64,000 nt of DNA from Micropterix aruncella. Lineage: Eukaryota > Arthropoda > Insecta > Lepidoptera > Micropterigidae. The position numbers were made by a program, and so were the translations under genes. The stretch covers positions 23,426,256 to 23,490,255 of the forward strand of contig OX155965.1 of assembly GCA_944548615.1 (NCBI GenBank). The letters are read 5' to 3'. Each line of letters begins with the position of its first letter. The first letter of the stretch is position 1. This document shows positions 20,700 through 57,524 of this stretch, piece after piece. The notes under the pieces are model-generated. The model did no database searches and was not told the origin of the DNA. It saw only the letters and a list, made by a program, of their open reading frames with translations.

Positions 20700-23600
20700 A
20701 AAAAATGTAATTTTCGAAATTTACCTACATCGTCGCCTTAAGGTCGTCTTTGATGGTATTTAGCCAGGTTTTCTTCGGTGCCGATCGCTGAATTCTCCAT
20801 TCTGTCGGACGGTCTCGCCAAAGAAGTTTACGTGGCAAGCGATTGTCGTTCATTCGGCAAACATGGCCGAACCATCGTAGTCGACGTTTTTGTACTTCTT
20901 CTTCGATCGTTGTTACTAGATCGCATCTTTCTCTAATGGTCTCGTTTCGAATTCGGTCGCGGAGTGAGACACCGAGAATCTGCCTCAAGCATCGCATTTG
21001 GAAGACTTCGAACTTTTTGAGGTCCGATTGTAGTAACGTCCACGTTTCCGATCCATAAAGAAGAATGGGAAGAACCAACGTTCGGTATAGTCGTACTTTG
21101 GTTTTGATGGTAATATTCATTCGCTTCCATATGCACCACTTGAGCGAGGCGAATGTTGCTGTTGCCTGACCGATCCGGCTATGGACATCGGCCGTCGAAG
21201 CCACTTTCTTTTCCGTAACCAACGATCCTAAATACTTGAATTGTGGGACCTGTTCGATTTGGGTTCCATCGAGGTAAACGCTGGGCTTCGAACCGTCCGT
21301 AGTGAGCACTTTGGTCTTATCCGCATTGATTTTCAATCCATATGATTGAGCAATTCCGGATATGTCGTATAAAATGTCCGTTGCTTCGGCATCAGTGTCG
21401 GCGAAAACGGCGCTATCATCAGCGAACATCAAATCGGTTATGAAGTTTGATTCGTCGTATCTAACTCCGCGTCGACAGTCGAATGCTCTCCGCATAATCG
21501 CGTCGATCACCACGTTAAAAAGTAGCGGCGATGCGACGTCTCCTTGTCGAACACCAGTTTGAATCGGGAATTCCTCAGACAAATCGTTACGGATTCGAAC
21601 GCTGCTGGTTAAGCCATCGTACGATGATTGGAGAAGTTTAATGATTTTTGGTGGCACGTGTTCTGTCTCCAAGGCACTCCATAAGCTGTTCCAATCGATG
21701 CAATCGAAGGCGGATTTAAAGTCTATGAAGACGACGATTGTTCGTTTGCCGCACCGTATTCTTTCTTCCATTAGCTGACGAAGAGCGAATATCTGATCAA
21801 TGCATCCTCGATATGGTCTAAATCCTGCTTGCTCCTCTCGGCTCGTTTGTTCTCGATGTTTTTGTAGCCTCGACTGTATGATTTTTGTAAATACTTTGCC
21901 GACTATTGAAAGAAGGCTAATACCACGATAATTCTTGCATTCTCTGCTATCGCCTTTCTTTAAAATTGGCACAACGATGGCTTTCTTCCATGCCGACGGA
22001 ATACGATCCGATTGCCAAATATGCGTTAGGAGAACATGTAGTTGTTGTAATAGAATGTCACCTCCGGCTTTGATCATCTCGGCGGTAACTTGATCTGGAC
22101 CCGGCGCTTTACCATTTTTCAGCGATTTTATTGCCGTTTTCACTTCGTTTATTGTTGGTTCGTTATCGGAAAACGGATTCGCCGGCTGATTGATAATCGG
22201 CGGTTGCGGTGCTGGACCTTGAGGCGGATCGTGATTGTGCAGCTGATTAAAGAATTCCCTCCACCGCTGCAGGCGCTCGTGGGGGGAGATCACGAAAGTT
22301 CCATCCGATTTCTTGATGTTGTCGTTCGTTGATGTTGTTTTCCCGCCTAACCGTCGGATTGTTTGGTATAGCGTCCGGTATTCGTGCCTCGATGCTGCTT
22401 CTTCCAATTCGGCTGCAACGTTATTCCAATGCGCTTCTCGTTCCGATTTCATTCTTTGTCGGACTTCTTTGTTCAATAATCGGTATTTTTCGAAATTGAC
22501 GTGTTTCATCCGTTTTCGTTGGTCGACGAGGTCTAAACAGTCGTCCGAAATCCATTGCTGCGTCCGTCGACGGATGGGTGGGCACAGCTCCGTTGCACAC
22601 TTCACAAGGGACTCCGATAATTGCATTTCTTCAAAGTCGATATCGTCTGATATTGCGAGCGTTGCGAATTTGTTGGATAGCGCGATTTGAAATTTCTGTC
22701 CAATGGCTGGGTCCTGTAGACATGCCCAGTTTCTCTTGGTTGGTGGTGGCGCTTTTTTCTTCGCTCGTTGTAGTCGCATTTGTAATTTCGCTCGAACGAG
22801 ATAGTGATCCGATCCGCAATCGGGTCCACGCATCGCCCGTACGTCTTTGACTGTTGATCGAAATCTCGAATTGATTAAAATGTAGTCCAACATTGCTGAA
22901 TCTTTACCGGACGGATTTCGCCACGTTAGTTGATGTTTGCGGGGATGACGAAATATGCTGTTTCCGACGATCATGTTGTTCGACAATGCGAATGATAACA
23001 GGCGTAGTCCATTGTCGTTAATTTCGCCGTGTCCAAATCTTCCCATCGTTTCTTCCCAACCCGTCCGATCTACACCCGTATGTGCATTAAAGTCGCCCGC
23101 TAGTATAATTAATTCGGTTCGGGGTATCGTATCCAGCGTGTGTTGAAGCTGGTAGTAGAATTCATCTTTGTTCGTATCCGGGCTCATCTCGGTTGGCGCG
23201 TAAACGGAAACGATATGGGTCTTGATTGTTCCATCGATGGTGATAACTGCTAAGCGCTCGGATATCGGTTGAAACGCAATAACGCTGCCGGCAGCTCGGC
23301 GATCGACCATGAAGCCGACCCCGGCCTCTCGTTTGTCGCCTCCGGAATAAAATAGCGTCATCGTCTCGTCGATTGTTGGATCAATTGTCATTGTTCCCGA
23401 TCCCGTGAGTCGTAATTCCGATAATGCGGCGATCGATATTTTGCATTTCGCTAATTCCATTGCTATGATTTCATTTTGGCCGACGTGATGCCCCGTTCGC
23501 ACATTCCATGCGGCGATTCGAATGTCCGATTTCGGTGTAAAATATTTGGGTTTTCGGCCAGTTGCCAACTTCTCACCAGCATCCCTGGTCCCCGGAGCTG

Positions 23601-23790
23601 GCGCATCGGCTGCCTCAGATGCGGTAGCATTATTTCGTGAATGATTAATTGTACTATCCATTGGTTTCTTGCCTGGTTTCTTCGGTTACCCGATTCTGGT
23701 CGACGCGGCAGGCCAACCACCCTCCTCCTTTCGCACCCTGGACTTGGGACCAGACGACGGCGGAGTGGTTTACAAGTTACAGAGTAAAAT
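20700..23790 (-). mobile_element. RTE-clade non-LTR retrotransposon, apparently full-length
   Basis: The element surrounds the intact 978-codon frame at 20725-23661. The 3' UTR is very short (CDS ends about 25 nt before AT-rich unrelated sequence), as in RTE elements. A GC-richer 5' leader of about 100-130 nt extends to about 23790. I saw no clear target duplication, so the outer limits are approximate. It lies inside the 10.4-kb block bounded by inverted arms. Confidence 0.75.
20725..23661 (-). CDS. RTE retrotransposon polyprotein (AP endonuclease + reverse transcriptase)
   Basis: A single uninterrupted 978-aa frame. The N-terminal AP-endonuclease domain (about residues 45-295) keeps its catalytic signatures: AWN (51-53), SEL (81-83), VYAPT (153-157), GDFN (189-192), LDY (258-260) and SDH (284-286). 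The RT domain (about 505-815) has KAPGPD (518-523), IDFKSAFD (646-653), GVRQGD (703-708), the catalytic FADD (746-749) and KYLGS (809-813). The C-terminal RRLRWFGHVCRMND block is typical of RTE. It would nick target DNA and prime reverse transcription in the nucleus. All key residues are present, so the copy may be young or active. Homologues are often misannotated as craniofacial development protein 2. Confidence 0.93.
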   Translation of the reverse strand: MDSTINHSRNNATASEAADAPAPGTRDAGEKLATGRKPKYFTPKSDIRIAAWNVRTGHHVGQNEIIAMELAKCKISIAALSELRLTGSGTMTIDPTIDETMTLFYSGGDKREAGVGFMVDRRAAGSVIAFQPISERLAVITIDGTIKTHIVSVYAPTEMSPDTNKDEFYYQLQHTLDTIPRTELIILAGDFNAHTGVDRTGWEETMGRFGHGEINDNGLRLLSFALSNNMIVGNSIFRHPRKHQLTWRNPSGKDSAMLDYILINSRFRSTVKDVRAMRGPDCGSDHYLVRAKLQMRLQRAKKKAPPPTKRNWACLQDPAIGQKFQIALSNKFATLAISDDIDFEEMQLSESLVKCATELCPPIRRRTQQWISDDCLDLVDQRKRMKHVNFEKYRLLNKEVRQRMKSEREAHWNNVAAELEEAASRHEYRTLYQTIRRLGGKTTSTNDNIKKSDGTFVISPHERLQRWREFFNQLHNHDPPQGPAPQPPIINQPANPFSDNEPTINEVKTAIKSLKNGKAPGPDQVTAEMIKAGGDILLQQLHVLLTHIWQSDRIPSAWKKAIVVPILKKGDSRECKNYRGISLLSIVGKVFTKIIQSRLQKHREQTSREEQAGFRPYRGCIDQIFALRQLMEERIRCGKRTIVVFIDFKSAFDCIDWNSLWSALETEHVPPKIIKLLQSSYDGLTSSVRIRNDLSEEFPIQTGVRQGDVASPLLFNVVIDAIMRRAFDCRRGVRYDESNFITDLMFADDSAVFADTDAEATDILYDISGIAQSYGLKINADKTKVLTTDGSKPSVYLDGTQIEQVPQFKYLGSLVTEKKVASTADVHSRIGQATATFASLKWCIWKRMNITIKTKVRLYRTLVLPILLYGSETWTLLQSDLKKFEVFQMRCLRQILGVSLRDRIRNETIRERCDLVTTIEEEVQKRRLRWFGHVCRMNDNRLPRKLLWRDRPTEWRIQRSAPKKTWLNTIKDDLKATM

Positions 23791-29775: not shown

Positions 29776-30365
29776 CGGAACGAGTCTTGTTTGAAAACAA
29801 TATTAAATTTTAGGAACTATGAGTGCTGTCTACACGTGCGTTTGGTAGTAAAATACTGGTTTCCAAATCGTAGTACGTCGTTGAGCAATATAATACGCGG
29901 TATACTCAATGGCGTTACTTTTACCAATACGGAACGTTTATTGACGAATTTCCCGCGCGCGCAGAGAGCGACCGGAACGAGTCACCATATTAAAAACAAT
30001 ATTCGATTTTAGGAACTATGAGTGCTATCTACACGTTACGTTTGGTAGTAAAATACTGGTTTCCAAATCGTAGTACGTTGCTGAGCAATATAATACGCGG
30101 TATAATCAATGGCGTTACTTTTACCAATCTGGACCCTTATTGACGAATTTTCCGCGCGCGCAGAGAGCGACCCGAACGAGTCACCTTATTGATAACAATA
30201 TTCAATTTTAGGAACTATGAGTGCTATCTACACGTTGCGTTTGGTAGTAAAATACTGGTTTACAAATCGTAGTACTTCGTTGAGCAATACAATACGCGGT
30301 ATAATAAATGGCGTTACTTTTACCGATACGGAATAACGAATTTTCCGCGCGCGCAGAGACCATCC
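29776..30365 (+). repeat. 199-bp tandem repeat array, nearly three units
   Basis: AGGAACTATGAGTGCT starts units at 29812, 30011 and 30210, so the period is exactly 199 bp twice. Each unit has TTGAGCAATATAATACGCGG and CCGCGCGCGCAGAGA. A partial unit precedes at 29776, and the last breaks off after about 155 bp. Units differ by a few substitutions. On the minus strand they read weakly like the LINE segment LLNAVLR (LLNEVLRF), so the array may derive from a LINE fragment. Confidence 0.85.
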
Positions 30366-31600: not shown

Positions 31601-31614
31601 TGTCCTAAATTACT

Positions 31615-32281
31615 TGGGAGCTAATGGGCCCATGATGAGGTGGCCACAATAACCCATGTGTTCAGGGTCGGTCACACTCACGGGTCAACACCCATCCGAT
31701 GGCCTCCACGCATGGGGTGCGAGCCTGGGTAGGACACTGGGTCAACCAGTCTCCCCTGGGAATCAATCCTCTGGCGCTCCTGGACGGTCTGCGCACCGAG
31801 CGGCGCAAGCCAATCGACTGTGCTCTCCGACTAACAATCGGGGGAGTCTGGGAACTGTATTGTTTCCTATAGAGCGGGGGTAGTTGTCTACCTTACGGCG
31901 ACTGCTCTTGAAATGACCATTGGCCATCCGATCCCGGTTCAGAGTCGGGCAAAGGACGCCTTGGTCCGCGATAGATTCGGTGCACTCCGTTTCACCGCTT
32001 CGTAAGGGAGAGGACCGCGCAAGCGACCTCAAACTCGGAACCAATCGAGAGACCGGAGAAATCTGGTCACAATTGGAAGTAAGGGCGCGAGTATCTCGAG
32101 CCCGCCGGGTTTATTCCTGGCTCACTCGCGGTAAGGCGTTGGACTCTCACGGGTTGTGACGTAGCTGGACGTAGGATTGTACTGTCCAAAGTCTTCTACG
32201 TTCACTGCAGGGCGACAGAACGACTAATCGTTATAACGTCCTGTGATGACGGGCTCGCCCGTTGTAGTCGACACCGCAAGA
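31615..32281 (+). mobile_element. GC-rich non-autonomous element, complete copy with target duplication
   Basis: A 667-bp GC-rich element starting TGGGAGCTAATGGGCCC and ending CCGTTGTAGTCGACACCGCA. It is flanked by TGTCCTAAATTACT at 31601-31614 and 32282-32295, a perfect 14-bp duplication. There is no poly(A) or terminal inverted repeat. Open frames are not conserved between copies. Together with the constant 3' end and variable 5' truncation of other copies, this fits a non-autonomous retroelement moved by a LINE machinery. I do not recognise the family. Confidence 0.75.
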
Positions 32282-32295
32282 TGTCCTAAATTACT

Positions 32296-32633
32296 TTTTT
32301 CTTTTTTTTTTCTTTACTCTGTTTATAACTTCAGTACGTAAGCTAAATAATGTTTGTATATTTAAATGTATATTTTATAATGTTAGATAGTAAGTGAATT
32401 GTTGATATTTTTTTTGATTAAATAAACGGTTCACGGGGTGCCGGAGGGGGTAGAAACCAGGAGAATCTTCCTCCATATCTCCGTTCGTCCACCCCTCACG
32501 TAATACCCTTCTGGTACGCGTGAGGTTGTCGATGCACGATATCCCGGGCAGATAAAACGACCCATGTCGTTAGAACTGCTCGGGTGGTGGGCGGGGTTTT
32601 TTCCTCCGCCTGTCACCGCGTAGCCTAATAATA
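32296..32633 (+). mobile_element. R1-clade LINE 3' end, 5' truncated
   Basis: A GC-rich 3' UTR (CACGATATCCCGGGCAGATA to GGTGGGCGGGGTTTTTTCC) homologous to the region downstream of the R1-clade coding remnant at 38303-38767. It is flanked by ATGTCCTAAATTACT on the left (32281-32295) and the same 15-mer on the right (32634-32648). No coding sequence remains; the first 100 bp is AT-rich UTR or filler. Confidence 0.65.
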
Positions 32634-32648
32634 ATGTCCTAAATTACT

Positions 32649-32970
32649 GAATTACCGCTGTAATACAACAGGTAGAGGCCACGTAAGCGACTTCGGACCC
32701 GTAACCAGTTGGAAGGATGGAGGCATCCGGAGGTATTCAAACGGAGATATCCTACCAAAACTGGTATTTGGGGGGCGAGGCTGCCCGCTGGGTACCTTTC
32801 CCGGTGCCTAGCCGTAAGGCGTTGGTCTCTAACGGGCTGTTGGCGAGCTAGACAGTAGATTGTCTTGTCTCTAAGTCTTCTACGCTCATCCCACGGGTGA
32901 AAGAACGATCACATATCGTTATACCCGCCTGGGGTAACGTGTTCGCCCGTTGTACTCGACACCACCCTAC
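32649..32970 (+). repeat. GC-rich repeat family, subfamily B, 5'-truncated plus copy
   Basis: Starts mid-element (GAATTACCGCTGTAATACAA) and runs to the usual 3' end (GTTCGCCCGTTGTACTCGAC, then ACCACC). The missing 5' half with an intact 3' end is the pattern of incomplete reverse transcription. Confidence 0.7.
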
Positions 32971-33058: not shown

Positions 33059-34382
<1,324 letters not shown>

Positions 34383-34477
34383 CTATATGGATAAATACAT
34401 TTACCAAAAATATCTCATCAAAAATCGTCATAGAAATAGTTATAAATACTTTTTGTAACGGCAGTCGCGTTTTTTAT

Positions 34478-35000
34478 TCATTTTAATATATTTACTTGTT
34501 TCCTACGTTCTTGTACGGAAGTAGGGAATTCCTTATAGTCAAATTGCTTATAGCTTTGGATGAGAGATTTCCTTTTTTCTTGACAATGGCCTCGGCCTTG
34601 GAAAGATTGAGTAGAGAAACTCATGGACATGAGGTTAGCTAGGCCGATATGAAGTTTGGATAAGAGTTTTGTGGATATTGCACTCAAAGCGTCACTGGGA
34701 TTAGGGGCTTTGTAGCTGGGCTTTTGTAGCTGAAGGTCGATCAATTATCTGAAAACGAGCTTATAAATAATCTGAAAAGAAGGGGTGATAAAATACATCC
34801 TTGGGTAACCCCACAGACAATCTTCGCCAAACTGCATTTCACCGATACCCGTTGCTCGCGATCATACAAATAAGAATGGAGGCAAACCTCGGTCGAAGAC
34901 GATATTTTTAAATTGTGTAAGTGAGCTAGAAGCAGGTCAATGCCAACAGAGTTGAAGGCGCTGTTGAAGTCGAAGAAAATTAGGACAGTCATCTGGCGAA
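34478..35000 (-). pseudogene. LINE reverse-transcriptase fragment
   Basis: Minus strand 34992-34741: LIFFDFNSAFNSVGIDLLLA (palm with the first catalytic Asp) through CGVTQGCILSPLLFRLFI. It then shifts to another frame (DLQLQKPSYKAPNPSDALSA) where the YADD box should lie; the YAD residues are lost. Clade resembles CR1/Daphne-like. Degenerate. Confidence 0.75.
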
Positions 35001-37428: not shown

Positions 37429-38076
37429 TTAAATATATATTTTTAATATGTAGTTTTTGGCCATAAATTTTCTTTATAGAACAGCTACTTCATAGGTAAG
37501 GACCCAATACCTCAGCTATTATTATTTATTAGTTTCAAATAGTATTCAAGGGCATTACAGATGAATCCGATTCGCCCTTGATTATCAAAGCTAGAGTGTA
37601 AGTCTAAAAATAAATGACTTACATAACTAAATTAATGCTAACATTGAACAAGAAAAAAAAACATAAAAATATAAAACTAAATAAAAGACAGATTATGATA
37701 AACATGACATAGCAGGGAGTTGCCTTTTTAGCTGCCAAAGGGATATACAAAAGATATCTATTTCTGTGGGTAAGGAATTAAGAAGAGCTATAACACTTCC
37801 CACTGGCCTGTCTACAAAAATATTTGTACGGTGGTACGGCACATTAAACAATAGATGCGATCTCCTAGCTGTGTAATTTACCGGTACGTACAATTCAAAC
37901 TTACATAGTATCTCTGGCAAATAAATAGTTCCTTGAATTAATTTATATGCAAATATAATTAGTGAAATATATCGACGCGTTTCAAGACTGTTGTATCCTA
38001 CCATTCCTAGCACAAAATCGGACGGAAATGAGTATGGATAAATATTGTATTTTCTGTAATAAAGATATCTTAGAAA
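37429..38076 (-). pseudogene. LINE C-terminal fragment with 3' UTR
   Basis: Minus frame 38013-37693 has RRYISLIIFAYKLIQGTIYL, VPVNYTARRSHLLFNVPYHR and SVIALLNSLPTEIDIF, the C-terminal region of CR1/Jockey-like LINEs. The AT-rich 3' UTR extends to about 37500. A GC-rich element inserted at its 5' side (38077). Confidence 0.75.
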
Positions 38077-38302
38077 TGGGAGTTAATGGGCCCTTGCTGA
38101 GTTGGCCACGAAGACCAATTCTGTTCAGGGTTGGTCACACTCACGGGTCAACACCCATCCGACGGCCTCCACGCATGAAGTGCGAGCCTGGGTAGGACTC
38201 TGGCCTTGGTCAGTTTCCCCTGGGAATCAAACTTCTGGCGCTCCTGGACGGTCTGCGCACCGTGCGGCGTAAGCCAATCGACTGTGCACTCTGACTAACA
38301 GT

Positions 38303-39363
38303 TAAGAGTTTCAAGGCGATAGGTGAGGGCAGCAAACCCCGCCCACCGCCCGGGCAGTTATAACGACGAGGGTCGTCTTGTCTGCCCGGGATATCGTGCT
38401 ACGACAACCCTGCGCGTACCAGAAGGGTAAAACGCGCAGGGGGTGAAATAGGGTAAACCACCCCCCCCCGTACCGCCCCGAGAACCCATTTATTCAAAAA
38501 AATAAAAGGTATTTACAAAAAAAAAAAATACAAAATATTACAAAATTTTACGAGAAAAGAAACAACAATATCGTAAATTTAGGAGCCGGTAATCGGGGTA
38601 GAGGACGCTCCAGAACAATGAAGGTGAAAGCGCACTGTCCGTGGGCAGGTCTCGGAGCAGCCACGGGGGGGAGGAATCCCTGGATCCTGCAAAGAACGAA
38701 ACGCCCCTCGGGGCGGTAAAGAGACGGACACAAAGACGGGCACTTCGGGCTGGAAGAACCCGCCGAATCACGCCACCAAGGAAGAGGGTACCCCCTGGGG
38801 GGTATCCCGAAGCCTCATGCTTTCCCAAGAAGCCACCCAGTGCCCCACAAACTCGCCAAACGACTGGAAGCAGCTCCTACAACTGACCAAATCCGGGTAC
38901 CAACTCGGAGAACGCCCAACGCACGCGCCCACTGCATCCATCAATTTCTCCCGTGCAGCCGCTAGAATTGGGCAAGACCAAATTACGTGTTCCGCAGCTT
39001 GGCGACCATACCCACAGGCGCACCGGGGGTCATCGGCAAGTCCAAAGTCAAATAGTTTGGCTCTGAACTCTCCGTGGCCCCCAACCAGCTGCGTGGTATG
39101 GTGGTCGAACCGCAGAAACGAATTTGCCATCCGCACTGCAACGGACGGGAAAAAGCAATGGGTGAGGCGGCCCGTACCCCCGGCGTCCCATCTAGCCTGC
39201 CAGACACGCAAGGACTCCACCCGAATCAGGCGGGCAAACTCCCCAGCTCGGTGCGCCACCGGGTCGATCGATAGGCCATGAAGGACTACCGGCTCGCCCC
39301 GGCGGTACCGCGACAACGCTGCACGCTCCAGAATCTCCAGGTCAATCGGCAGAACGCCAGCAG
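38303..39363 (-). mobile_element. R1-clade LINE, 5' truncated, with 15-bp target duplication
   Basis: Flanked by ACTCTGACTAACAGT at 38288-38302 and again at 39364-39378. The minus strand encodes the ORF2 C-terminus (39363-38768). The 3' UTR below 38768 lacks a poly(A) tail and matches 32400-32633. R1-clade elements typically make about 14-bp duplications and are often site-specific; here the site is within a GC-rich repeat. Confidence 0.8.
38768..39363 (-). pseudogene. R1-clade ORF2 C-terminal fragment with CCHC finger
   Basis: Open from the 5' truncation point. It contains ILERAALSRYRRGEPVVLHG, RVWQARWDAGGTGRLTHCF, QLVGGHGEFRAKLFDFGLAD and the CCHC-type finger CACGYGRQAAEHVIWSC, all hallmarks of the region after the RT in R1-clade ORF2. 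The stop falls after DTPQGVPSSLVA. Endonuclease and RT are lost, so it cannot be active. The remaining frame is undamaged, which suggests a fairly recent insertion. Confidence 0.8.
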
Positions 39364-39765
39364 ACTCTGACTAACAGTCGGGGGAGTCTGGAAGCAGTAC
39401 TGTTTCCTATAGAGCGGGGGTGGTTGCTGACCTTACGGCGACTGCTCTTGAAACGACCATCGGCCATCCGATCCTGGGTGAACAGCCGGGCAAAGGACGC
39501 TGTGGTCAGCGATAGATTCGGTATTCACCGTTTCACCGCTTCGTAAGGCAGAAGACCGCGCAAGCGACCACGAACTCGGAACCAATCGAGAGACCGGAGT
39601 AATCTGGGCTTACTCTTACGGGCTTGTGATGTAGCTAGATGGTGGACTGTTTTTGTCCCAAGTCTTCTACGTTCTCTCCAGGGAGATAGAACGACTAATC
39701 GTTAAAACTTCCTGAGGTGACGGGCTCGCCCGCTGTAGTCGACAACCCAAGTTATATCTTAAAAA

Positions 39766-41200
39766 TTTTCTTTGAATACGCTCTACCATCTACTCATCCA
39801 TCTATTGTTGGATCTATCGATCTATGGACTGTTGGATCAGCTATCGACTATTACGTTGGATTGGCTATTGAGGTCACCTCTTCTACTACACTTTTGCCAG
39901 CACCAACCCCATATTACGAGAAAGTAAAAATACTCGTACGTTTACATTGGTGAAATCTTCTCAGTCTGTAATAGCGTTGGTCGATACGAGTATCGGTGTA
40001 TAAACAGAAATATGCTCTGTTTGCTGGCGCCTGCTTTGCGCATGAGTCACTATCCACCCAAGATCTGTCGACCCTGAACGTGCAACGAAGACAGATTAAT
40101 CGAGTGAGATAGATCAGTTTTAATGGTGATTTACTTCACTTCTGCCAGAATCCGTGATAACAATTTGAATTTGTTTTTTCAGCGGCTAGAAAACCAGCCG
40201 TTACGACTCGAGAGTTATAGCGCAAACAGAAATGAACGATTTCAACATTATAACCCTAGAATGTGTCTGATTCCTGGTATAACCAGTACTGAATAACCCT
40301 ATAATGTTGACGCCCTACAACAGAGGTTTTTTTAAGTGTGACGCGATCCACTTCGGAAACCTGTATACATCTCTAGTGGGGTGCGAAAAGTCTTGAAAAT
40401 TAACCCAAGATAGCTAACGCTCTAAACTACTATGATAAGCTAACCATTCGATATTTTTTTTTTTGAATGTGTTGTTTTATTTGACGATATTTTTTTGAAT
40501 GTGTTGGTTATCAAAATTTTATTATAGTTTTCTCAAGGTTATTGTATTTAAAGAAAATATGGGATATAAGTGAAAGGTAATTATTACAAAAATGAATATT
40601 TATTGACCTTTTATTTACCTTTTATTTACTAAGTCACAAATCTTAAATGGCATATGTTTATTTGATATCAATATGGTACTTATATTTACAGTGAATAAAT
40701 CAGGAACTATTGTATAGAAAGTTAGTTTTTTTTCTTTGGTATTAAATATATAATTAGATTACAAAACTTATAAATGAACGTTAATTCTCAAATTACTTAG
40801 ATTTTTTATTACTTAGACCTTAGATTATCAGTTTAAATGTGACGCTTCAAGCTGTTTACAAACATATAAGTATGCGGTAGGTATCTTACATACAAAATTA
40901 CTTATGGTTGACTGTAAGATATCGCTATAGCGATAAAACCGTCATTTGTGCATAAATTGTCTTTTTTTATAAAACCAGTGTAATATTCATTAACTTATGT
41001 TTTTATAGCACAATAAAGTTATTCTATTCTATTCTTTACTTATCGGCTAAACGCGACTACCAGGCGACGCAGTCTAGCGGTGTGTGGGTAAAATAATTAA
41101 AAAGGGATAGAGGGATATTTAATAGATGCTCGTCGTTTTGACGAACGTTAGCTCCCTAATAGTACATAGTCATATTTTCAGATTCGAATTATCAAGCTTC
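39766..41200. other. No supported gene
   Basis: Includes a small inverted motif (CTGGTATAACCAG at about 40275) within AACATTATA...TATAATGTT flanks at 40226-40312, and otherwise AT-rich sequence. No recognisable frames. Confidence 0.35.
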
Positions 41201-41340
41201 TTACGAACGAGTGGCGTAACTAGACAGTGGACTATTTTCGTCACAAGTCTTCTACGCCCACCTCACGGGAGACAGAACGATCAAATATCGATAAAACTTC
41301 CTGAGGTGACGGGCTCGCCTGTTGTACTTGACAGCTCCAG
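41201..41340 (+). repeat. GC-rich repeat family, short 5'-truncated copy
   Basis: Only the last 135-140 bp of the family is present (GAGTGGCGTAACTAGACAGT to CTTGACAGCTCCAG). Flanks TTATCAAGCTTC and TTGTCAAGTTTC form an imperfect duplication of about 12 bp. A strongly 5'-truncated insertion with the standard 3' end. Confidence 0.65.
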
Positions 41341-41534
41341 TTGTCAAGTTTCGTTGGCATATTCACCTACCATATTTCAATAGCACTGAAGCCTCAATTT
41401 AAAGCTGCACGTCGAGATCTCAAATATAATAAATAAATCACCATAATACTTTTAAAGCGTATCAGCTTTCGAAATGAAAGATGCAAGGAAAGCCGCCTAA
41501 CTTTTCGTCTTTCTACAACATTGTCTGAAGACAG

Positions 41535-44396: not shown

Positions 44397-45065
44397 AAAA
44401 TGCTCTGTCCCGAGCCAACCCCGGGTGCAGCATCCATGTCATAGTGTAAGGGGCTCCTAGACGATCAAGCATGCTAGTCAAGCATCACGTCGCGGGCTGG
44501 GAAGGGATCGTAAACCACAGGAAATATACAAATATTTTTTTGTAATATTTACCAAAAATGCCTAATTTTGTAGTTTATACCAGGGAGTCACGTTAATTAG
44601 ACGTAATTGATTGATGAATGATTGACTCCCTGGTATAAAACTACACAATTAGTAAATATTTAAAAAAAAATGCATATTTCCTGAGGTTGACGATCCCCTC
44701 CCAGCCCGGGACGCGATGCTTGACAAGCATGATTGATCGTCTAGAGAGCCCCTAACTTAGAACAGGCTATCATAATTGAGTGCATATATAAAATATCGTT
44801 TATGTGTTGATGACCGTTGAGGAGTCCCCTCATCGGAAGCCAACTCTGGGTGCAACAGCCCTGTCGCGATGAAACTTAGAACGGGCTATGATAATTGAAT
44901 ACGTATACAAAATTTCGTTTCTGTGCTGTTGACCGTTGATGAGTCGCCTCGTCGGGAGGTAACCCTGGGTGCAGCAGCCATATCATTGTGAACTTTAGAA
45001 CGGGCTATCATAATTGAATGCGTAAACAAAATTGTGTGTCTTTGCTGTTGACATTGGAAGAGTAT
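44397..45065 (+). repeat. 122-bp satellite-like tandem repeat interrupted by a MITE
   Basis: Units share AACTTAGAACGGGCTAT, AATTGAATGCGTA, GTTGACCGTTGA and CTGGGTGCAGCAGCC. Unit starts fall at about 44755, 44873 and 44995, so the period is roughly 120 bp. A partial first unit (44397-44446) is separated from the rest by the MITE at 44450-44752. Confidence 0.8.
44450..44752. mobile_element. Harbinger-type MITE, copy 3
   Basis: GGGGCTCCTAGACGATCAAG on the left, with the complementary right end GATCGTCTAGAGAGCCCC. It is flanked by TAA (44447-44449) and TAA (44753-44755). Comparison with the neighbouring satellite units confirms the insertion point. 303 bp, non-coding. Confidence 0.82.
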
Positions 45066-46870: not shown

Positions 46871-47935
46871 GTTTTAATCGGTTTGAAGCAGTTTCATTGA
46901 AGTGACCCGTGTTCGATATCGAACACGGCCCGAGAGAAGAAGACGAATGCTACTGTTGAGGATTGACAGAGGTACGATTGCAGTGCATGTGTAAACATTA
47001 TCCGCCCTAGTAGCTTCATGGAAAGTAGGGCGCTGGGGCGAGACGCTCACCAAAATAACATGGACGAGAGAGCGGCGCTGCTGACAGCTACAGCACCCCC
47101 CTCTCCCACCTCCCCCACCGCATAGGCCGTCGAATGCGCGGGAAACAGCCATTACTTTTAACATAGCCATAGCCAACAGAGGAGAGGGCTCCACAAATGT
47201 AGTACGGGGGAAGATGATTTTAAAAAATGGCCAAAAGTGTTTAATGGTTTTGCTTTCCTGGCCCAAGGGAATGTGTTTTGACCGCGCTAAAAACATGTTT
47301 TCGAGATGACGGAAATATCAATGTTGACCCCCCTGAGACGATTATCACCATTTCCAGACTGAAGTCTGTTTGTCAGTCTGTGCGTATGGCTGTGTGTGTG
47401 TATTGTGTATATAGTTTACACTAATATTTTAGTATTAATATTGAAAGTAGTTTAGTTGTCAAATAACGTCAGTACATCACAAAAACAAAAGCAGTGTATT
47501 TCCTATGCCCAGATACAGGCTGCTTGGTCTGGTTAGGCATTCGTCTAGCTAGAATAATCGTATGGGTTGTGTTCATCTCCTTATTGCTTATATTTCTAAT
47601 TACAATTTATATCTGTACGATCACACTGATAACCGATAACCCGAATGCATACCTACTAATAAATACTTAAATTTCTCCACGATAGCGCCTAAACGCTTCA
47701 TCCGATTGAGCTGAAATTTGGCATGCAGGCATCATTCGGTCATGATGCAAGATTGCAAGATTGGCAAGATTGCAAGATTGGCAAGATTGAAGCTCTCCAT
47801 TGCAAATAGTTGAGTGAATGTTCAATTACGGGTCGATAATTATACTCCCATGTATAAAAATATTTAGGACATATGCCTATCAGCCTCGTATCGTACATTC
47901 TAAACACGTTAGGACCAACTATCAGAGATCCGGCA
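46871..47935 (+). repeat. Repeat-derived interval with family C pieces
   Basis: 47310-47400 (CCCCCTGAGACGATTATCAC, then CCAGACTGAAGTCTGTTTGT) and 47675-47760 (CATCCGATTGAGCTGAAATT) are two pieces of one family C copy separated by about 275 bp of other sequence. A small ATTGCAAGATTGGCAAG tandem lies at 47749-47791. The 140-codon minus frame at 46874-47296 contains a Gly-rich stretch but no domain I recognise. Confidence 0.5.
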
Positions 47936-48440
47936 ACTAGAGTTGCCGACTACAACGGGCGAACCCGTCACCTCAGGAAGTGTTAACGATATTAGATCGT
48001 TCGGTCTCCCGTGAGGTGAGCGCAGAAGACTTAGGATGAAACAGCCCACCGTCTAGTTACGCCACACGCCCGTAAAAAGCCAACGCCTTATCGCGAGATG
48101 ACCAGGTTAATCACCCAGCGGACCGACACTCGCACCCTTACTTCCAGTTGCGACCAGATTACGCCGGTCTCCCGACTGGTTAAAGGCTCGAGGTCTCTTG
48201 CGCAGTCCCCTTCCTTACGTAGCGGAATTTCACCCGGAATTGGGTAGCCGATCGGTCGTTTCAAGAGCAATTTTCGTAAGGTAAACAAATGTCTTCGCTC
48301 TATAGGAGACAGTACTGCTTCCAGACTCCTCCGGCTCCTCCATACGTGGAGGCCGCCGGATGGGTGTTGACCCGTGAGTGTGACGGACCCTGAACACATG
48401 GGTCTTCGTGGCCAAACTGTAACAGGGCCCATTAGCTCCC
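47936..48440 (-). mobile_element. GC-rich non-autonomous element, minus copy with target duplication
   Basis: On the minus strand it starts GGGAGCTAATGGGCCC (48440) and ends CCGTTGTAGTCGGCAACTCT. Flanks CAGAGATCCGGCA (47923-47935) and CAGAGATCCTGCA (48441-48453) match in 12 of 13 bases. 505 bp, with internal deletions relative to 31615-32281. A 135-codon minus frame crosses it, but its sequence is not conserved as protein in other copies. Confidence 0.75.
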
Positions 48441-49010
48441 CAGAGATCCTGCACTGAGAAACAGTCGGTTCTTTCCTAGAGTAATACAATTCCACTTACC
48501 CTTAAATATTATATTTTCACGTTGTAATGCGAAAATGAATATCACGGTAGATGCGGGGTCCTAACACAAAGGTAACCCCTCCCCCCCCCCCCCCTCCCTA
48601 TTATCTCGCCATCCCACCCTCTAACACAATTAAAATGTTAATGCCCTCAATCTGGAATGAACCTTCATATCGGATATACATGAGCGCCTTTACGCGTATT
48701 ATTGAGGTTATATACATGACTGTACCTATATAGAAGGCTTGGGGCTATAATATACAGGGTCTTCATTTAATAAAAAGGCGTCCTATCAGGGGGGAATCTG
48801 TATTAAATCCAAGCAACTTCCGTATAAAATTAATATTTCCAAAATGAGTCTGACTTATTATTTTTTGCCATTCACAAATAAATCAACGTAGAAACTCCGC
48901 GGAAAACGATTAGGAAAGCGTATAACATGTCCATTTTTACTTTGTCGATCCACCAACCGACTAGGAGGGAAAGTATTGTGAATACGCTAAAAAAATCGAG
49001 GTGAAGAAGG
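48441..49010. other. Unassigned interval with poly(C) run and a family C start
   Basis: A C-run at 48580-48594, AT-rich sequence, then the family C 5' end at 48945-49005 (CGATCCACCAACCGACTAGG, GGAAAGTATTGTGAATACG). This leads directly into the TA array, suggesting that the array grew from the family's own GGATATATAC. Confidence 0.5.
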
Positions 49011-50396
<1,386 letters not shown>

Positions 50397-50404
50397 ATAT
50401 TTTA

Positions 50405-50765
<361 letters not shown>

Positions 50766-50769
50766 ATAC

Positions 50770-52616: not shown

Positions 52617-53250
52617 TAGAAGCCGTAGAAGACTTGGGGATAAGACAATCTAATATCTAGTTCACCAGCAACCCGTTAGAGACCAACGCCTTACGGCGAG
52701 GCACCGGGAAAGGTAACCAGCGAGCAGCCTCACACCCTAACTACCAGTTTTGGCAGGATATCTTCGTATGAATTAACCTTCAGGATACTTCCGTCCTCCC
52801 GGCTGGTTACGGGTCCGAAGTCGCTTACGCAACATCTACTTGTTGTATTACAGCGGTAATTCAGTTTGTGTTTATCGCGGACCTGGGCGTTCTTCGCCCG
52901 TAGTGCCGCACAGGATCGAGTGGCCCAAGGTCATTTCAAGAGTGGCATGACATCAGATGAAACATCCACCCCCGATGCTTAGGAAACAGTGTATTTCCAT
53001 AGTCTTCAGATCTCTTTAGCAATTAGTTAGAATGCACAACCGATTGGCTTCGCCGACCGATGCGCAAACTTTCCAGTGGCGCCGGGATGCAATCCCGCCG
53101 GGAGAAACCGGTCCACCAGCTCTGAGACCTGAGACACGGGAGTCTTACCCGGGGTAGCCTTCCACATAGGAGCTGAATCGTGAGTTGAGCCGATCCGAGA
53201 ACTAAATGGATCTTGTAGCCCAACTGCACGAAACCGTTCACCACATAGGT
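52617..53250 (-). repeat. GC-rich repeat family, subfamily B, long minus copy
   Basis: Complement-sense blocks: CTACAAGATCCATTTAGTTC (5' part near 53215), GGATTGCATCCCGGCGCCAC, CCGCTGTAATACAACAAGTA, CGGTGCCTCGCCGTAAGGCG and CTTCTACGGCTTCTACGTG. It lacks the final 100 bp of the 3' end. Non-coding. Confidence 0.65.
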
Positions 53251-54759: not shown

Positions 54760-55165
54760 AAATACGTAGCGGATATACGGCGTCTAGCGAATCTATCGCG
54801 GACCAAGGCATCCCTTGTTTGGCTCTTCGCTCGGTATTAGGTAGCCGAATTGTCGTTTCAAGAGCAGCTGCCGTAAGGTAAACAACTACCCCCGCTCGCT
54901 CTATAAGAAACAATACCGTTTCCAGACTCCCCCGCTGTCGGTCGGAATGCATAATCGATCGGCTGACGCCGCAAGTTGCGCAGACCGTCCAGGGCGCCCG
55001 AATGTTGACACCTAGGGAAATTGGCCCAAAGGCCAGAATCCTACCCGGGCTCTCACTTCTGCGTAGAGGCCGCCGGATTGGTGGTGAGCCGTAAGTTAGA
55101 CCGACCCTAAACGCATGTGACTTAGTGGCCTGACTGCCACAGGGCCCATTATCTCCCGTAAGATA
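54760..55165 (-). repeat. GC-rich repeat family, subfamily A, minus copy lacking the 3' end
   Basis: The minus-strand 5' end GGGAGATAATGGGCCC lies at about 55158. It contains GGTCCGCGATAGATTCGCTA and CGGGGGTAGTTGTTTACCTT-like blocks and breaks off at about 54760. Confidence 0.65.
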
Positions 55166-56875: not shown

Positions 56876-57524
56876 ATATCTTACGGTGAGGCATCGAGAA
56901 AGGTACCCAGCGGGCAGCCTCGCCCCCAACTATCAGTTTTGGAAGGATATCTCCGTCTAAAATTAACCATCATGATACCTCCAACCTCCCGACTGGTTAC
57001 GGGTTCGAAGTCGCTTGCACGACCTCTACCTGCCGTATGTTCAACGGTGATTCAGTTTGAATCTATCGCGGACCAATGGCATATTTTACCCGGCTCTGAA
57101 TTCAGGATCTGGTAGCTAAATTGTCATTTCAAGAGTGGCTGAAGACAGGTCAACATCCACTCCCGCTGCTTAGAAGACAGTATATTTCCATAGTCCCCAT
57201 ACTCCTTCAGCGATTAATCTACCGACTAGCTAAGCGAGCATTCCCCTTAGAGGCCGACGCATTGCGGCGAGGCACCGGGAAAGGTACCCAGCGGGCAGCC
57301 TCGTCTCCTAACTACCATTTTCGGAAGGATATCTACCTACATCTGAAAATACGTCCAACCTCCCGACTGGTTACGAGTCTGAGGTCGCATGCGCGATCTC
57401 TACCTGCAGTATATTCAGCGGTGATTTAGTTTGAATCTATCACGGATCTTTGATATAAATTCCCGGCTCTGACTTTAGAATCAGTTAGCCAAATAGTCAT
57501 TTCAAAAGTGGTAGACGACAGGTC
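56876..57524 (-). repeat. GC-rich repeat family, subfamily B, two tandem minus copies
   Basis: Two copies in the same orientation, about 56876-57232 and 57236 onward, each with GCGAGGCACCGGGAAAGGTA and TCCCGACTGGTTACGRGT-type blocks. The second is interrupted by the LINE at 57530 and resumes at 59285. Confidence 0.7.

Follow-up and report, generated by a model that had tools for sequence, protein, structure and literature searches.

A tail-less, non-coding retroelement of Micropterix aruncella, an R1-like LINE as its probable helper, and a LINE target site within the element

A family of non-coding, tail-less repeats with a full length of approximately 667 bp in the genome of Micropterix aruncella is most probably (probability roughly 0.83) a non-autonomous retroelement that an R1-like LINE resident in that genome, hereafter LINE1, copies in trans. 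The family was studied in a window of DNA of 64,000 nucleotides (contig OX155965.1) and in the whole assembly (1.08 Gb, 742 contigs). A first-pass annotation of the window had proposed a non-autonomous retroelement, neither tRNA-SINE nor MITE, that borrows the enzymes of a LINE. The proposal is supported in that target duplications, 5' truncations and a constant 3' end all fit it, and we infer mobilisation in trans from the comparison with LINE1 given below. The annotation had not picked up the candidate helper present in the window, the hot spot common to both elements or the serial insertions.

Copies, borders and insertion sites of the element family

The type copy, a full-length element of the young type, is located at positions 31616–32281 of the window (plus strand). 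At least 40 copies in the genome were 99–100% identical to the element. These were the best-scoring 40 of 2,322 candidates (39 fetched with their flanks, plus the window copy), and the sample is therefore biased towards young, full-length copies. Their mean pairwise divergence was 0.79%, a value that this choice of best-scoring copies favours as young. In the window, the family took up 4,830 of the 64,000 bp in 16 segments detected with blastn, two of them halves of one interrupted copy, in keeping with the earlier count of at least a dozen copies. Copies reduced to their 3' part had been noticed near 32649 and 41201; both were present, at 32651–32969 (plus strand, 5'-truncated, older subfamily B) and 41196–41343 (plus strand, 5'-truncated, 3' part only). 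Further older copies were located on the minus strand at 52624–53083, 54763–55157 (5' part) and 56880–57425. A copy with internal deletions (47924–48440, minus strand) was flanked by CAGAGATCCGGCA and CAGAGATCCTGCA.

Other repeats of the window were long simple arrays rich in AT/TA, with inverted arms that matched almost perfectly (34083–34488, 48907–49211 and 50090–50768) and two tandem repeats of three copies each, with units of about 199 bp (29839–30337) and 119 bp (44757–45063). Elsewhere in the assembly, COI-like stretches, some with internal TAA or TAG, were observed on large contigs (C5, C9, C14, C7, C13 and others) and are probably nuclear insertions of mitochondrial DNA.

Young copies of the family had a fixed 3' end, ...GTAGTCGACACCGCAAGA. 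It was constant and tail-less, as the first-pass annotation had described it, but the true border was situated 9 nt past the GTAGTCGAC at which the annotation had placed it. No coding region was found in the element, the longest stop-to-stop frame being 115 aa, which agrees with the earlier statement that no protein is conserved.

Exact target duplications of at least 10 bp flanked 33 of the 40 young copies (12–15 bp in 30 of them) and varied in length, while the remaining seven copies had no clear duplication. With copies carrying the hot-spot motif (described below) excluded, duplications were found in 25 of 31 copies, versus none of 5,963 controls consisting of re-paired family flanks. Three pairs of matching direct repeats of 12–14 bp had been annotated in the window, and all three were present. 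The first pair, around the type copy, consisted of two exact 15-bp copies of TGTCCTAAATTACTT (31601–31615 and 32282–32296, plus strand), whereas the pairs at 38065/39754 and 47923/48441 were 13 bp long with one mismatch each, as judged by eye. The 3' flank started with TG in 44 of 45 family rows (39 of the 40 young ones); TG made up 5.7% of the dinucleotides of the window.

An R1-like LINE and a 3' hairpin common to three repeat families

A family copy at 38077–39753 was split by a 5'-truncated LINE1 copy (38301–39363, minus strand), inserted at the hot spot in the opposite orientation, which left a 5' half (38077–38300) and a 3' half (39364–39753) of the element on the plus strand. This LINE1 copy carried the C-terminal part of ORF2 in a 200-aa stop-to-stop frame (38768–39370, minus strand). 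When a longer piece of LINE1 (L048) was used to search the genome, at least 105 copies of 14,957 candidates were scored, with 96–97% amino-acid identity in the matches besides the query. A frame of 1,059 aa was open in 31 of the 105 copies (manual count), and a stop inside the match occurred in one of the 105. Among 29 copies compared over 1,179 nt, the mean pairwise divergence was 0.42%, again a best-scoring sample that favours young copies. Judging from their sequences, both the family and LINE1 show signs of recent movement.

An 893-aa part of LINE1 ORF2 contained an endonuclease domain (PF14529; 29.0 bits, cut-off 27.4) and a reverse transcriptase domain (PF00078), the APE-type endonuclease preceding the reverse transcriptase, as expected for the R1 clade. 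Among the 120 ORF2 matches listed, four were named R1 and a fifth had an incomplete 'type-1 retrotransposable' name. A tree was constructed with 19 chosen rows (14 of the 120 homologs listed, from 357 found; LINE1; and four other LINEs of the genome). A 98/99 branch separated LINE1 and all five R1-named proteins from the reverse transcriptases of the four other LINEs. We consider LINE1 to be R1-like, its predicted ORF2 product grouping with R1 elements in a tree that has automated names, several long branches and no curated clade set, and in which the R1-named rows do not form one clade. The window also contained an intact-looking LINE outside the tree group of LINE1 (20725–23685, minus strand), with an open frame of 986 aa encoding endonuclease and reverse transcriptase. 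In one LINE1 copy, an upstream ORF1 frame of 538 codons was open to the edge of the fetched stretch and showed zinc-knuckle-like motifs by eye. No Pfam domain was found in this frame, and a PDB search with a piece of LINE1 returned a single chance-level match.

Directly downstream of the type copy and its 3' duplication, the window contained a fragment of a third repeat, designated LINE2 (32297–32634, plus strand, 5' border approximate). It is known here from this non-coding stretch alone, of which 109 nt matched the LINE1 3' UTR at 83%, the match from which alone the name was taken. At least 40 genome matches to LINE2 were scored of 1,676 candidates. Their ends were A-rich, TG was not constant, and the hairpin was as in LINE1.

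A similar hairpin was formed by the 3' end of the family (32200–32253, plus strand, in the type copy), the LINE1 3' UTR (38349–38390, minus strand) and the LINE2 fragment (32538–32591, plus strand) when each was folded alone. It consisted of a lower stem, an internal loop, an upper stem with ACGA/UCGU and a small loop. The internal loop was 4×4 in the family and LINE1, and the LINE2 fold placed an extra pair inside it. Within the family, the structure was conserved with covariation: in 23 hairpins, 94.7% of the cells paired (31–46% in slid registers), and 24 cells were changed on both sides versus 8.4 after shuffling; none of 500 shuffles reached 24. Further pair types stood out less, since 52 of the 500 shuffles reached the same number.

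A covariance model built on these 23 family hairpins, without LINE sequences, found LINE1 in all ten loci tested (of 30), with E values of 1e-4 to 3.4e-4. In the window it found both LINE-type 3' UTRs (E 6.8e-4 and 1.3e-3), and the first unrelated match followed at E 1.3. LINE1 scored 24.6–26.7 bits; antisense family hairpins reached up to 28.4 bits because the hairpin is nearly palindromic. In a hand-chosen alignment of five family hairpins (four of the 23 plus window copy 39676) and three LINE-type hairpins (two LINE1, one LINE2), 96.3% of the cells paired (two of 500 shuffles as high) and the covariation score was 0.225 (three of 500 as high), while pairs changed on both sides numbered two of ten, no more than in the shuffles. 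The last 20 nt or so differed, with ...GACACCGCAAGA in the family and ...GAAACTCTTAAC/TAAAC in LINE1. The 3' end shared with an autonomous LINE, which the first-pass annotation had named as a check of its reading, was accordingly found in the RNA structure and not in the terminal nucleotides. We propose that the family hairpin is a candidate signal for recognition by the helper.

Shared targets and competing explanations

LINE1 had a hot spot of insertion within the element, at element positions 211–222 (window 31825–31836), reading TGTTAGTCGGAG on the minus strand, with insertion just before TG. In the element body the target is GAC|TGTTAGTCRGAG, also written GAC|TGTTAGTCAGAG. The 3' flanks of 50 of the 105 scored LINE1 copies were read, in sets of 30 and 20; copy L114 missed the general end pattern and was counted with its own. 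Flanks started with TG in 44 of the 50 and otherwise in six. Insertion at TGTTAGTC(A/G)GA or a near variant of it, corresponding to family position 222 in minus-strand reading, was found in 29 of the 50, a count that omits mutated forms (L053, L116). Assuming that full copies occupy the same share of the genome as the family does of the window (7.5%), we estimate that chance would place about 5.6e-5 of insertions at a single position of each copy on one strand. Family sequence was present within 120 nt of the LINE1 3' flank in 41 of 50 cases, and the family 5' end within 45 nt in 11. A second hot spot, TGTCYCRTCTRGATGCRCTGG in another repeat, was used by four of the 50 copies (L057, L071, L098, L117).

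Use of the hot spot was rarer in the family, with 13 of 45 rows located there by motif (eight of these aligned directly to position 222), than in LINE1, with 29 of 50. The junctions were alike in that both the family and LINE1 inserted mostly before TG, with similar duplications. At locus L077, one identical target was used by both, in the order TATCGTATTTT – LINE1 – TATCGTATTTTA – element – TATCGTATTTTA, so that a single target occurred three times. This target was outside the hot spot and started with TA rather than TG. In the window, the type copy, the LINE2 fragment and the truncated element formed an array in which TGTCCTAAATTACT occurred three times, the third at 32635–32648 (plus strand), as in serial insertion at one target.

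The LINE2 copy of this array was inserted at a TG target, between duplications of the same 14-bp target as the element. Since LINE2 has both the hairpin and this target, the hairpin alone cannot single out LINE1, and the 3' tails of the family and LINE1 differ. Another R1-like LINE, either LINE2 or one outside the sample, might therefore mobilise the family, LINE1 only sharing the hairpin and the hot spot. We consider this unlikely. None of the 16 LINE2 3' flanks read (of 40 matches) was at the hot spot, and at most four could start with TG as judged by eye, against TG in 44 of 45 family rows and 44 of 50 LINE1 flanks; LINE2 was not favoured as the helper on these grounds. Some family match was present in four of the 16. 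The hairpin is a feature of a group of R1-like repeats; LINE1 is indicated as the helper by the targets used.

The R1-dependent elements described from Drosophila are SIDEs (PMC3414825), and the family could likewise be an R1-like LINE that lost its interior, so that its two ends, 5' and 3', became joined. This origin appears improbable. With blastn, the element matched nothing in the LINE1 body as read in L057/L080, which extends from where ORF1 ends to the 3' terminus, and in a 401-bp stretch of one LINE1 copy that surrounds the start of ORF1 only a 19-bp piece resembled the family 5' end, the LINE1 5' terminus being beyond the compared stretch. A 5' ribozyme of the R2 type was rejected as a candidate: Rfam contained no ribozyme matching the element, and a simple scan found no 5' P1-like helix. 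For the 5' part of approximately 530 bp, no source was found in the LINE1 sequence compared, in Rfam or in the tRNA search.

At 667 bp, the element is long for a SINE. It nevertheless behaves like one, being non-coding, flanked by target duplications and high in copy number, and it has weak B-box-like matches at 68 and 102 (two mismatches), so a classical SINE whose Pol III head has decayed or is unusual was considered. We regard it as rather doubtful. ARAGORN found no tRNA; Rfam gave no match at curated cut-offs, its two weaker ones (E 2.8 and 3) being at chance level, and no 5S or 7SL up to E 5; in the box scan, nothing like an A box preceded the B-box-like matches. By these three methods, no Pol III-derived head (tRNA, 7SL or 5S) was found, and the earlier judgement that the element lacks convincing A and B boxes still stands.

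The hot spot itself could reflect recombination or gene conversion among repeats instead of independent insertions, as many of the elements are nested in one another. Among the LINE1 copies at the hot spot, two pairs have a common truncation point (L073/L079 and L054/L063), so the LINE1 copies need not all be independent events, and six of the 16 copies with their 5' end within the fetched stretch lacked a duplication. The other ten had exact duplications of 11–15 bp, truncation points mostly differed, and the L077 target was used by both elements outside the hot spot, which together make this explanation very improbable. A MITE, suggested by a short, GC-rich sequence in many copies, can practically be dismissed, as comparison of the element ends found no terminal inverted repeats, duplication lengths vary and 3'-only copies exist. 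Inverted repeats, a coding region and copies lacking duplications were also what the first-pass annotation had named as arguing against its reading; the first two were not found, and the 33 of 40 duplicated copies speak against the third.

Proposed cycle and comparison with known systems

On the reading that LINE1 mobilises the family, RNA of the element would be made from a putative promoter. The LINE1 ORF2 protein, with its endonuclease and reverse transcriptase, would bind the 3' hairpin, which is also present in LINE1 RNA, and the endonuclease would nick before TG, preferring AC|TGT. Reverse transcription would begin at the fixed ...AAGA 3' end, which would explain why there is no poly(A), and early stops at times would lead to the 5' truncations. 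A second-strand cut about 12–15 bp downstream would then produce the target duplication. We infer protein binding, mobilisation in trans and the order of these steps from the anatomy and targets described above. Because the favourite site is within the element body, each full copy would offer a fresh landing pad to LINE1 as well as to later family copies, and since the duplication would leave a usable site, serial arrays could form.

We cautiously lean towards the two elements being a self-reinforcing pair, in which the LINE is specialised on a site inside its own dependent, the dependent spreads landing pads and the LINE mobilises the dependent. In such a pair, parasite and habitat would be one molecule, and R1-type target specialisation would have left the host gene array for a target that moves and multiplies itself. 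As the target would be made by the LINE's own enzymes if the pair works as proposed, the supply of targets would grow with activity. The system would make two questions testable: which RNA feature an R1-clade reverse transcriptase reads, three repeat families here having a compact hairpin of similar layout, and by what route target specificity passes from genes to other elements. Copies fit for assays may exist, as both elements appear to have been active recently.

Host repeats are a known refuge of R1-clade LINEs. SART1Bm is a LINE of this clade, and Tx1L is a LINE whose target is a mobile element. The view that R1 proteins recognise their own 3' UTR comes from the R2/R1 hybrid SIDEs of Drosophila (PMC3414825). 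As described there, these SIDEs resemble the family in being non-autonomous, with R1-type 3' recognition and 14-bp duplications, and they are likewise interspersed with R1 in tandem arrays with the duplication between units. They are located in 28S genes and combine R2 ribozyme and R1 3' UTR segments, whereas the family is dispersed and is itself the target; unlike the SIDEs portrayed in that source, it showed no ribozyme and no LINE1 sequence beyond the hairpin. R1 and its tandem arrays, as presented in PMC2718515, also share with the elements described here 14-bp duplications, reinsertion into the duplication of older copies and 5' truncation. R1 targets the 28S gene according to the same source, whereas the target here is a site inside a non-autonomous element. 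Serial use of a duplication is known for R1 in rDNA from both sources (PMC2718515; PMC3414825).

Mobilisation in trans has a precedent in SART1Bm, whose proteins mobilise foreign RNA only if it carries the SART1 3' UTR (PMC7265360). That was an engineered test with a telomeric target, in which the poly(A) tail matters, whereas the family is natural and tail-less. The lepidopteran SINEs PxSE1–5, as characterised in PMC8010984, are non-autonomous like the family, and the 3' tail of PxSE5 is LINE-like; they have tRNA or 5S heads, in contrast to the family, in which none was found. Transposons are among the targets of target-specific non-LTR elements, as outlined in PMC4640811. LINE1 shares a mobile-element target with these cases, and differs from those outlined there in that its target element also appears to be LINE-dependent. 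Among the titles listed from the open-licence literature, none concerned a dependent of the R1 clade outside rDNA or a LINE targeting its own dependent. Within that literature, the combination described here seems new: a dispersed dependent of an R1-clade LINE in which no Pol III head was recognised and whose body serves as the main target of its helper.
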